From Nitrospirota bacterium (GTDB lineage: Bacteria > Nitrospirota > Thermodesulfovibrionia > UBA6902 > JAJYJJ01), in assembly GCA_021789595.1 (NCBI GenBank), contig JAJYJJ010000011.1, forward strand, positions 1-64,000: DNA of 64,000 bases. Reading direction: 5' to 3'. Under the pieces are notes generated by a model. It worked only from the letters and a program-made list of their open reading frames with translations, did not search any database and was not told the origin of the DNA. Positions 1,724-6,776 of the stretch are shown here, piece by piece. Position 1 is the stretch's first letter. Every line of letters begins with the position of its first letter. A program made the translations under genes and the position numbers.

Positions 1724-2458
1724 ATGATTGTAATCCCTGCCATTGATCTAAAAGACGGTAAATGCGTCCGCCTTGTTCAGGGTAAAAAGGAAGCTGTAAC
1801 CATCTATTCTGATGACCCGGTATCCACGGCAAGGCATTGGGCAGCCCTTGGCGCAAAACTCCTTCATGTTGTTGACCTCGATGGAGCATTCGATGGCATA
1901 CAGAAAAACCTTGATGTCATTATTGCTATAAGAAGGGCTGTAGATATAGGGATAGAGATTGGCGGCGGTATAAGGGATATGGATAGGATTGATGCCCTTT
2001 TAAATGCAGGGCTTGACAGGGTTGTCCTTGGAACTGCTGTTGTTGAGAAACAAGAACTTGTTGAGAAGGCATGCAAGAAATTCCCCGGCAGGATCCTTAT
2101 CGGCATAGATGCAAAGGATGGCTGGGTTGCTGTAAGGGGATGGCAGGAGGTTACCGATATAAAGGCTGTATCACTGGCAGAGGATATGATGGACAAAGGG
2201 GTTGCTGGCATTATATATACGGACATCTCAAGGGATGGGATGCTTAGCGGGCCGAATCTTGATGCTGTGCAGGAGATGGTAAATGCCGTTAATCTGCCTG
2301 TCATAGCCTCTGGCGGTATCAAAACCATAGATGACATCAGGACACTGATGGGGGTTAAGGGATTATGGGGTGCAATAACAGGCAAGGCCATATATTCAGG
2401 AAGTCTCGATCTAAAAAAGGCTATTGAGCTTACATCTGAAATATCGCCCTCCTCTTGA
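1724..2458 (+). CDS. hisA: Phosphoribosylformimino-5-aminoimidazole carboxamide ribotide isomerase HisA
   Basis: HisA catalyses the Amadori rearrangement of ProFAR to PRFAR in histidine biosynthesis, in the cytoplasm. The 244-residue protein is full length for the (beta/alpha)8 family. It begins MIVIPAIDLKDGKCVRL, with the first catalytic Asp in AIDLKDG and the second in TDISRDGML, and it carries the phosphate-binding signatures GGGIR and ASGGIK. The start ATG lies one base after the preceding stop. Unusually, hisF does not follow: the next gene is a radical SAM protein, so the gene is detached from a classical his operon here. Confidence 0.95.
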   Translation: MIVIPAIDLKDGKCVRLVQGKKEAVTIYSDDPVSTARHWAALGAKLLHVVDLDGAFDGIQKNLDVIIAIRRAVDIGIEIGGGIRDMDRIDALLNAGLDRVVLGTAVVEKQELVEKACKKFPGRILIGIDAKDGWVAVRGWQEVTDIKAVSLAEDMMDKGVAGIIYTDISRDGMLSGPNLDAVQEMVNAVNLPVIASGGIKTIDDIRTLMGVKGLWGAITGKAIYSGSLDLKKAIELTSEISPSS

Positions 2459-2501
2459 CGAATGCATCAGAAACTCCTTATCCTTAAATAAGGAGGCACA
2501 C

Positions 2502-3446
2502 TTGAACACAAGGCTTTTACAGGCAAGGTATAATTCCTTCAACGACTTCTGCAGGGAGAGGTTCGGACACAGGGTCTATAAGGTAAATGTAGATGCAGGT
2601 TTCACATGCCCCAATAGGGATGGGACAGTCTCTGTCGGCGGATGTATATACTGCAACAATGATTCCTTCAGGCCGGATGCCTGCAGGCATGCCATCCCCA
2701 TAGAGGAGCAGATAAAAAACGGAATAGAGTATATCAGAAGAAGATACAAGGCAGATAGATTTATCATCTATTTTCAGCCATTTACCAACACCTATGCGCC
2801 TGTAGATGAGCTTGAAAGGCTTTACAAAACAGCCCTCATGGATGATAGGGTTATTGGTCTTGCCATCGGTACAAGGCCTGATTGCATAGATGATGAGAAA
2901 CTATGTCTGTTGGAGGAGCTGTCCAAGAGGTATTTCATCCTTATAGAGTATGGCGTCCAATCCATATATGATAAGACATTGAGGTTTATAAACCGTGGGC
3001 ATAACTATCAGTGTTTTAAAGACGCCCTAAAAAAGACGAAGGGCAGGGGGATATACATAGGCTCGCACATAATCCTTGGCTTTCCAACAGAGACTATGGA
3101 TGAGATGCTTTACATGGCAGATGAGCTTTCAAGACAGCCAATAGATTTTCTAAAGATACATCAATTACAGATTGTCAGGGACACTGCCTTGTCTGTAATG
3201 TATGAGAGGCATCCGTTTCATGTCTTTTCCTGCGATGAATATATTGGCCTTGTGTGTGATTTTTTTGAAAGGCTCTCTCCGGATATTTATATACAAAGGC
3301 TTTTTGCCACTGCCCCTGATAATGTCCTGATTGCACCACACTGGGATAAAAGCAGGCACCAGCTTCTTATAGATATAAACATTGAATTTGATAGGCGGGA
3401 TGCCTATCAGGGCAGACTTTACAAAAAACAGGCACCTGTATATTAG
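2502..3446 (+). CDS. TIGR01212/YhcC-type radical SAM protein
   Basis: The ORF track begins at 2424, inside hisA. However, an AGGAGG at 2491-2496 sits five bases before an in-frame TTG at 2502, so I place the start there (314 residues, LNTRLLQARYNSF). The N-terminal third carries a radical SAM cysteine cluster in TCPNRDGTVSVGGCIYC, spaced as in the YhcC/TIGR01212 family rather than the simple CX3CX2C. The family has an Elp3-like radical SAM fold and its members remain poorly characterised. The gene appears cotranscribed with hisA and the thioesterase that follows 9 bases downstream. Confidence 0.85.
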   Translation: MNTRLLQARYNSFNDFCRERFGHRVYKVNVDAGFTCPNRDGTVSVGGCIYCNNDSFRPDACRHAIPIEEQIKNGIEYIRRRYKADRFIIYFQPFTNTYAPVDELERLYKTALMDDRVIGLAIGTRPDCIDDEKLCLLEELSKRYFILIEYGVQSIYDKTLRFINRGHNYQCFKDALKKTKGRGIYIGSHIILGFPTETMDEMLYMADELSRQPIDFLKIHQLQIVRDTALSVMYERHPFHVFSCDEYIGLVCDFFERLSPDIYIQRLFATAPDNVLIAPHWDKSRHQLLIDINIEFDRRDAYQGRLYKKQAPVY

Positions 3447-5114: not shown

Positions 5115-5729
5115 TTATTCTTTTAATGCCTCATGGACCTTCCCGACCATCTTAGCAGAAGGCTTAAGGGTTTTATCCCCTTCGTCTTTCCATTTAGCCG
5201 GACAGCCTTCATTTGTATGTTTTGCAAGGTGAAGATTTGCCTTAAATTTCCTCATCAGTTCATCAATGTTCCTGCCCATGTTATAGTAGTTGACCTCGGC
5301 ATTTAAGAGCTTGCCATCAGGATTGATAATGAATGTTCCCCTTAGTGCAAGGCCTGTTGCCTCGTCATAAACGCCAAAGTCTCTTGCAAGCTTCCCTGTT
5401 GGATCTGAGCCCATAGGATATTTGACATTTGCAAGCTCTTTTTCGTCCCTTTGCCACGCAAGATGGACATATTTTGTATCCGTGCTTACTGTAATTACCT
5501 CTGCACCCATCTTTTTAAACCTGTCGTACTGCTCTGCCAGAGCAGCAAACTCGGTAGCTCAGACGAATGTAAAATCAGCAGGATAGAAGAAAAGTATAGT
5601 CCATTTCTTCTTTGCTTTTTGCGCCTCAAGGCTTATCTCTCCAAAGTCGCTTTTTGATGGCTCATAGATTTCAAGTTTAAAATCAGGGACCATCTGTCCT
5701 ATCTGAAGTCCGCAGCAATTCTCTGACAT
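5115..5729 (-). CDS. Peroxiredoxin (AhpC/Prx1 type), probable selenoprotein with UGA at the peroxidatic site
   Basis: The ORF track gives only the C-terminal 131 residues because an in-frame TGA at complement 5559-5561 breaks the gene. Reading it as selenocysteine gives 204 residues from an ATG at 5729 with AGGAGG upstream. The UGA is codon 57 in FYPADFTFV(U)ATEF, exactly where typical 2-Cys peroxiredoxins carry the peroxidatic cysteine (TFVCPTE). The resolving Cys is at about 176 (EGCPAKW). A stem-loop fitting bacterial SECIS rules follows the UGA. The enzyme would reduce peroxides in the cytoplasm. Rubrerythrin lies 16 bases upstream and a PerR-like gene lies before that. The alternative is a pseudogene or a Cys-to-stop base error. 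Confidence 0.85.
5527..5547 (-). promoter_or_regulatory. Candidate bacterial SECIS element
   Basis: Starting 11 bases after the UGA, the mRNA can form a 9-bp stem (7 Watson-Crick pairs CTGCTCT/AGAGCAG, extended by a G-U and a U-A pair) capped by the loop GGC. The loop begins 20 bases after UGA with G in its first two positions. This agrees with the published bacterial SECIS consensus of a loop 16-37 bases from UGA, a 3-14 base loop with an early G, and an upper stem of at least 4 bp. Confidence 0.7.
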
Positions 5730-5745
5730 ATCATCCTCCTAAATT

Positions 5746-6168
5746 TTAATTAGCAAAGAACCTATCAAGGAGACCTTTAAGCATCCTTGCATGTCTTGCC
5801 TCATCCCTTGATGACTCATCAAAGAAGTCATGTGCGGGGTCTATGTTGTTCTCTTTTGCCTTGGTTGCAGCCTGTTTTTTACCGTTGTTAGCACCGATCT
5901 CTCCTGCAAGCATCTTCTCAAGATTATCCTTTGTATTTGTAGATACCAGGCCGTTTAACTCTGCGAATTGCGCTGCATGCTCGGCCTCTTCCCATGCGAT
6001 TGTCTTTAGTGCACCTGCTATCTCTGGATAGCCGTCCCTCTGGGCCTGTCGTGCCATGGCGAGGTAAAGCCCCACCTCTGTGCACTCACCCTTAAAGTTA
6101 GCCATTACCTCATCCTCAACTGCTGTTCCCTTTGATACCCCTATTTTGTGTTCATTGATGATCTCCAT
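5746..6168 (-). CDS. Rubrerythrin (erythrin-type, no rubredoxin domain)
   Basis: Rubrerythrins reduce hydrogen peroxide at a diiron site in a four-helix bundle and are common in anaerobes. This 140-residue protein contains the paired ligand motifs EEAEHAAQF and RDEARHARM, plus glutamates in [13 protein letters not shown]. Unlike classical rubrerythrin it has no C-terminal rubredoxin domain. A rubredoxin-like domain occurs instead at the C-terminus of the adjacent PerR-like gene and could conceivably act as an electron donor. A good ribosome site (GGAGGTC) precedes the ATG. It sits between perR and the peroxiredoxin and is probably repressed by the former. Confidence 0.88.
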
Positions 6169-6230: not shown

Positions 6231-6335
6231 TTAAGACTTCTGCATTGTTCTCTTCTCGCCACATTTGGGACATTTCTGTGGCTTGCATCTCCCCTCTTTT
6301 GTTGCCCCGCATTTACTGCATTTAAATACTGCCAT
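6231..6335 (-). CDS. Possible internal start: free 34-residue rubredoxin-like protein
   Basis: Inside the perR-like gene, exactly at the domain junction, a near-perfect Shine-Dalgarno AAAGGAGGTGA lies 8 bases before an in-frame ATG at 6335. Initiation there would give a 34-residue protein beginning MAVFKCSKCG with five cysteines, matching the size of stand-alone RCKP rubredoxin-like proteins. The locus may therefore produce both a fused repressor and a free metal protein. Use of this start is inferred only from the ribosome binding site. Confidence 0.45.
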   Translation of the reverse strand: MAVFKCSKCGATKEGRCKPQKCPKCGEKRTMQKS

Positions 6336-6743
6336 TTTCATCACCTCCTTTAAAGTCTTACACTTTGGGCATACTCCATAGAACTCAATATGGTTGCCTA
6401 TCAATTCAAAACCATTTCTTTTTTCCTTTGGTATATCTACCCTATAATCCTGATGTAGATCAACTATAGACTTGCATCTGACGCATATAAGGTGGTGGTG
6501 AGGCTTTGTATTGGGGTCAAACCTCTTTCTTGCAGGGTCGATGGTTAACTCCAGAATCCACCTGTTTCTTTTTAATGCCTCAAGTGTATTGTAGACCGTG
6601 GCAAATGACATGGTCGGAAATCGCCTTGAGATACTTCTGTATATATCCTCTGCCGACGGATGGCTTTTATTGCCATCGAGATAATCGAGTATTGCCAGCC
6701 TCTGTGGTGTTAACTTCAGTCCGAGATCCTTATACCTTTCCAT
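6231..6743 (-). CDS. Fur/PerR-family repressor fused to an RCKP-type rubredoxin-like domain
   Basis: Residues 1-135 or so are a complete Fur-family protein: a winged helix (LTPQRLAILDYL, FATVYNTLEAL), a His-rich metal site (KPHHHLIC) and two CXXC structural zinc pairs (CVRC, CPKC). This looks closer to PerR than Fur. Residues 137-170 add a short domain with CSKCGATKEGRCKPQKCPKCG, resembling small RCKP rubredoxin-like proteins. The ORF track uses a TTG at 6755, but the ATG at 6743 preceded by GAGGA is better. The gene heads the rbr-prx operon and its promoter contains a PerR-box-like palindrome, suggesting autoregulated peroxide sensing. The fusion is unusual. Confidence 0.85.
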   Translation of the reverse strand: MERYKDLGLKLTPQRLAILDYLDGNKSHPSAEDIYRSISRRFPTMSFATVYNTLEALKRNRWILELTIDPARKRFDPNTKPHHHLICVRCKSIVDLHQDYRVDIPKEKRNGFELIGNHIEFYGVCPKCKTLKEVMKMAVFKCSKCGATKEGRCKPQKCPKCGEKRTMQKS

Positions 6744-6776
6744 CTCTGTCCTCAATAATTACTTTTTATAAATAAA

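Follow-up and report, generated by a model that had tools for sequence, protein, structure and literature searches.

Selenocysteine peroxiredoxins are exemplified by PrxU of Eubacterium acidaminophilum, which Sohling et al. are said to have described in 2001. The gene analysed here, prx, lies in a window of 64,000 nucleotides from the genome of a Nitrospirota bacterium and resembles PrxU in its Prx1/AhpC-like fold, in Sec at the peroxidatic position of a TxxU motif and in a UGA followed by a hairpin. Its product reaches 180.3 bits against the PrxU model NF040737 (cut-off 270), whereas the PrxU genes L124 and L126 of the same phylum score 403 and 356 bits. These two are about 43–44% identical to the prx product, stand on a separate branch and have an unrelated sequence after the UGA. 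Since prx falls below the cut-off while L124 and L126 exceed it and branch apart, prx would work like PrxU but stand outside the NF040737 equivalog. L125 is a further PrxU-type UGA gene of the phylum whose post-UGA sequence is unrelated to that in the window, and one genome (G015) has both Sec lineages, the PrxU type and the prx clade.

AhpC (PDB 1yf1 and 1we0) has the fold, the peroxidatic and resolving positions and the C-terminal CPAKW motif in common with the prx product. The latter differs in having Sec for Cys and UATE for CPTE, and its score to the AhpC model TIGR03137 is 203.9 bits, below the cut-off of 272. For AhpF, the partner of AhpC, there was no full-length match above the cut-off in the prx genome, only separate TrxR-like and PDO proteins. 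The same domain and motif as in prx (pfam00578, TxxU) characterize the predicted Sec ‘Prx’ proteins catalogued previously (PMC2398784, PMC13188914). These two catalogues may include members of the prx clade, but the accessible parts of their main text set apart neither the clade nor its fixed SECIS nor the reversions from Sec to Cys. With PrxU and the catalogued proteins known, the class is not new, as the preliminary description of this DNA had already stated; judged from the alignments and the tree, the prx clade is a separate and widespread branch. The features of the locus are as follows:

5115..5729, minus strand: AhpC/Prx1-type peroxiredoxin gene (prx), 204 aa with UGA taken as Sec (translation, Pfam, PDB chains)
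5559..5561, minus strand: predicted Sec codon UGA, codon 57 (sole in-frame stop; TGA recurs in 92 distinct homologous genes)
5528..5546, minus strand: predicted SECIS hairpin core GCUGCUCU-GGC-AGAGCAGU, loop 5536-5538, 20 nt after the UGA (fold, codon fixity, compensatory changes)
5735..5741, minus strand: AGGAGG, Shine-Dalgarno-like, of prx (read directly from the sequence)
5746..6168, minus strand: rubrerythrin-family ferritin-like protein without a rubredoxin domain, 140 aa, directly 5′ of prx (Pfam Rubrerythrin, 62 bits; ORF)
6231..6755, minus strand: PerR-type Fur regulator with a C-terminal RCKP rubredoxin-like domain in one open frame (Pfam FUR, 104 bits; NCBIfam)

The prx frame of 204 codons runs from ATG (5729-5727), with AGGAGG a few bases 5′ of it, to TAA (5117-5115) and contains a single in-frame TGA (5561-5559). 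The product matches Pfam AhpC-TSA with 134 bits and AhpC chains in the PDB with E values of 1e-46 to 1e-47, and the fold is settled because of this homology. U57 in YPADFTFV-U-ATEF falls on the peroxidatic Cys in the FTFVCPTE of AhpC, and Cys175 (NEGCPAKW) aligns with the resolving Cys of AhpC (GEVCPAKW), so that the alignment assigns the peroxidatic role to Sec57 and the resolving role to Cys175. The three marks of the typical 2-Cys Prx1/AhpC type, an AhpC-TSA domain, the motif PxxxTxxC/U and a resolving Cys in a C-terminal CPAKW, are all present. Codon 57 among the loci read is TGA in 92 distinct clade genes and TGC or TGT in 19, which places an in-frame UGA where homologues have a redox Cys. 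The dN/dS of prx 3′ of the UGA is about 0.03–0.09, and both sides of UGA57 appear as intact coding sequence on which purifying selection acts. The preliminary description had put the UGA at the peroxidatic position, between two intact halves and together with a conserved resolving Cys; the alignment, in which the UGA falls on Sec or Cys columns, the single stop and the low dN/dS after it bear this out. By these characters, prx is a real selenoprotein gene for an AhpC/Prx1-type 2-Cys peroxiredoxin.

The genes selA, selB, selC and selD that a selenoprotein gene calls for are all present in the assembly with prx (99% complete, 36 contigs), and thus the selenium machinery was found where it had been expected, elsewhere in the genome; the main ground on which the preliminary description could have fallen, a lack of all these genes, does not apply. 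SelA (533 bits) and SelB (390 bits) adjoin on contig C27, a normal tRNA-Sec with the anticodon UCA is on C4 and SelD (334 bits), with an in-frame UGA of its own, is on C11. The UGA of this SelD (L018 1498-2421, minus strand) presumably occupies the active-site Cys/Sec position. A partly fixed GGTCC...GGACC after the UGA is shared by its relatives (SelD set L157-L186), one of which (L181) has Cys instead of the UGA. SelA was detected in each of the 45 genomes tested that have the peroxiredoxin in its UGA form and in 21 of 35 genomes with the stop-free form only (Fisher p 1.5e-6), a contrast that ignores phylogeny and is confounded, since most of the SelA-less genomes come from few families. A second tRNA-Sec-shaped tRNA (G000:C33:30449-30543, minus strand; L003 1501-1595; RF01852, 55.5 bits) has the anticodon GCA and U73. 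It sits just 5′ of a YedF gene (TIGR03527, 206.7 bits) and fits the selC* tRNA-Cys known from Nitrospirae.

A 9-bp stem with a GGC loop 20 nt after the UGA had been proposed as a SECIS element, and the minimum free energy structure indeed consists of nine contiguous pairs with a GGC loop beginning 20 nt past the UGA. The free energy of a 31-nt piece with the hairpin is −13.8 kcal/mol, and 1 of 200 shuffles was equally stable (z −2.9). Bacterial SECIS elements as delimited in the accessible part of PMC13188914 have a loop of 3–9 nt with G among its first two positions, a stem of 4–16 bp, a spacing of 16–37 nt and a free energy of at most −7.5 kcal/mol; the prx hairpin, with G first in its loop, lies within each of these limits. 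Codons 62–67 show a codon entropy of 0–0.29 bits in 72 Sec sequences; other conserved residues average 1.36 bits and nowhere fall below 0.48. The third-position GC of the same sequences varies from 35 to 96%, yet these codons are nearly frozen. The 18-mer GCTGCTCTGGCAGAGCAG is identical in 65 of the 72, and several exceptions with the pairing kept, among them GCCGCTCTGGCAGAGCGG, GCTGATCTGGCAGATCAG and GCTGACCTGGCAGGTCAG, occur in the larger set.

Over the 92 Sec sequences, 98.8% of the stem cells are paired and four of the eight stem pairs show two-sided changes. Neither the pairing nor the two-sided counts of the Sec set were matched by any of 1000 shuffles, a control which leaves relatedness in, so that its counts are not probabilities; slid partners pair at 15–61%. 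The 19 Cys homologues are paired at 53%, not above shuffles. Residue 63 is A together with E66 in 84 genes and D together with D66 or G66 in eight, with no mixing; in the Cys homologues, the combinations at residues 63 and 66 mix freely. The changes in the hairpin are two-sided and some of them alter amino acids (residues 63 and 66). The TGA and the hairpin go far beyond chance, since 92 distinct homologues have kept both. The fixity of the prx SECIS was also considered as a unique property, which was rejected because the SelD hairpin is partly fixed too (30 sequences, mostly GGTCC-GNN-GGACC or similar), although shorter and with variable flanks. Compared with SelD, the fixity in prx is stronger in degree and the same in kind.

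Homologues at E ≤ 1e-40 were found in 140 of 396 genomes searched in the phylum, and a scan of GTDB species contigs provided 56 loci labelled Nitrospirota, Acidobacteriota, Planctomycetota, Rokuibacteriota, Methylomirabilota, Krumholzibacteriota, Binatota and others, these being MAG labels and possibly imperfect. In the maximum-likelihood tree of 112 proteins, Cys forms with CPTE are basal and the U/C-ATE clade follows as a supported branch, inside which further Cys forms are nested (L042, L098, L112, L118, and L127 with the f12 group). With PrxU counted, supported branches of this tree demand at least seven changes of the Sec/Cys label. This suggests one gain of Sec from a Cys ancestor and then about five reversions to Cys, the direction of the changes hinging on the root, which was placed at the midpoint. 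The Cys form L127 retains the near-SECIS sequence GCTGCTCTTGCAGAACTG and UGA forms also occur in its genus, which fits a recent reversion to Cys. A survey from 2006 listed five Cys-to-Sec events and no Sec-to-Cys event for Prx (PMC1794560); the clade may offer about five Sec-to-Cys changes and a hairpin fixed within one family. The clade is noteworthy for these two properties, the fixed SECIS and the repeated Sec-to-Cys changes, and ordinary in kind.

The peroxide-defence context of the preliminary description was found as well, with the rubrerythrin and PerR-type Fur genes just upstream of prx on the same strand, which suggests a peroxide-responsive expression of prx. The product of 6231-6755 scored below the cut-offs of the NCBIfam PerR models and above that of NF045720 (RCKP). 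A PerR gene is upstream of the prx homologue in 29 of 126 loci, and the PerR/rubrerythrin operon was rejected as a defining context because only a minority of the relatives have it. Inside the single PerR-RCKP frame, a strong ribosome-binding site (GGAGGTGATGAAAATG) precedes the ATG of the rubredoxin part, and PerR mostly stops before the RCKP rubredoxin-like part in the relatives checked. The single frame represents either a fusion or a lost stop with an internal start.

Taken as a whole, the locus is very probably that of a Sec57 2-Cys peroxiredoxin, whose UGA57 would be decoded via SelB and an in-frame SECIS; gene structure, machinery, conservation and covariation make up the sequence basis of this reading. 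As to Sec insertion, catalysis, reductant and regulation, we infer the following course. For the decoding of UGA57, the in-frame hairpin 20 nt further on would bring in SelB with its Sec-tRNA-Sec. By analogy with established peroxiredoxin chemistry, the selenolate of Sec57 would attack H2O2 or an alkyl hydroperoxide and turn into a selenenic acid, which Cys175 in the partner subunit would resolve to a selenenylsulfide. The selenenylsulfide would then be reduced by a dithiol protein, with thioredoxin or a Grx-like/PDO protein as the probable donor, and the adjacent PerR-type repressor probably controls prx together with rubrerythrin. Besides thioredoxin, the genome encodes a TrxR-like flavoprotein and a PDO that would contain Sec.

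The Sec-PDO candidate (G000:C33 near 1886-2518, minus strand; L150 1504-2145) reaches 277 bits to TIGR02187 (cut-off 185) and has an in-frame TGA in VTPT-U-PHC; a 3′ hairpin is possible but not notably stable. The neighbouring gene, in divergent orientation, belongs to the OsmC family. Sec-PDO, a homologue of the AhpF N-terminal domain, was also considered as a dedicated reductant, which is unsupported: it is encoded on another contig, its close orthologues are absent from most Sec-peroxiredoxin genomes, and it never occurred in the fetched neighbourhoods.

Lone in-frame stops in draft assemblies often turn out to be errors, and the TGA might represent a nonsense mutation or a miscalled TGC or TGT in a broken gene. 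However, codon 57 is TGA in 92 different genes that belong to several phyla, which makes a sequencing error untenable, and the low dN/dS downstream and the covariation of the hairpin also argue against a pseudogene or an error, so that we consider this explanation extremely improbable. It is also highly improbable that a selC*-type tRNA-Cys inserts Cys at UGA57, which would make prx an ordinary Cys peroxiredoxin. Such tRNAs with the anticodon UCA are present in some Desulfobacterales (PMC7609411), and the genome does have a tRNA-Sec-shaped tRNA with U73 upstream of yedF; yet the anticodon of the latter is GCA, which reads UGC and UGU, the UCA tRNA of the genome is a normal tRNA-Sec, and the Cys homologues use TGC or TGT and drop the hairpin. 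That UGA has become a sense codon throughout the genome, for which nothing besides the single in-frame UGA speaks, has next to no probability, given that UGA otherwise serves as a normal stop, with 20 of 50 long ORFs that do not overlap in the window ending in TGA, and that a SECIS follows the UGA that is read through.

The selenoprotein might also serve mainly as a peroxide sensor or relay with PerR and rubrerythrin and not in bulk peroxide removal. The genes of both these proteins adjoin prx in the window and PerR is found in part of the relatives, but the resolving Cys and the PxxxTxxU motif are those of an ordinary peroxidase and most relatives do not share this context, which makes a mainly sensory role unlikely.

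As regards the Sec57 peroxidase and its clade, neither of the curated peroxiredoxin models (NF040737, TIGR03137) names prx, and annotation with standard stops probably splits or truncates the gene, so that an antioxidant enzyme widespread among mostly uncultured bacteria would easily be missed. We also tentatively consider, at somewhat less than an even chance, that the clade is a distinct Sec-peroxiredoxin lineage with a nearly sequence-fixed SECIS that serves the SelB of several phyla, that it spread partly by gene transfer and reverted to Cys several times, and that selection on the RNA put constraints on the protein, with joint changes at residues 63 and 66. If this is true, a SECIS in bacteria need not be a fast-evolving structure but can be a portable cassette that stays fixed.
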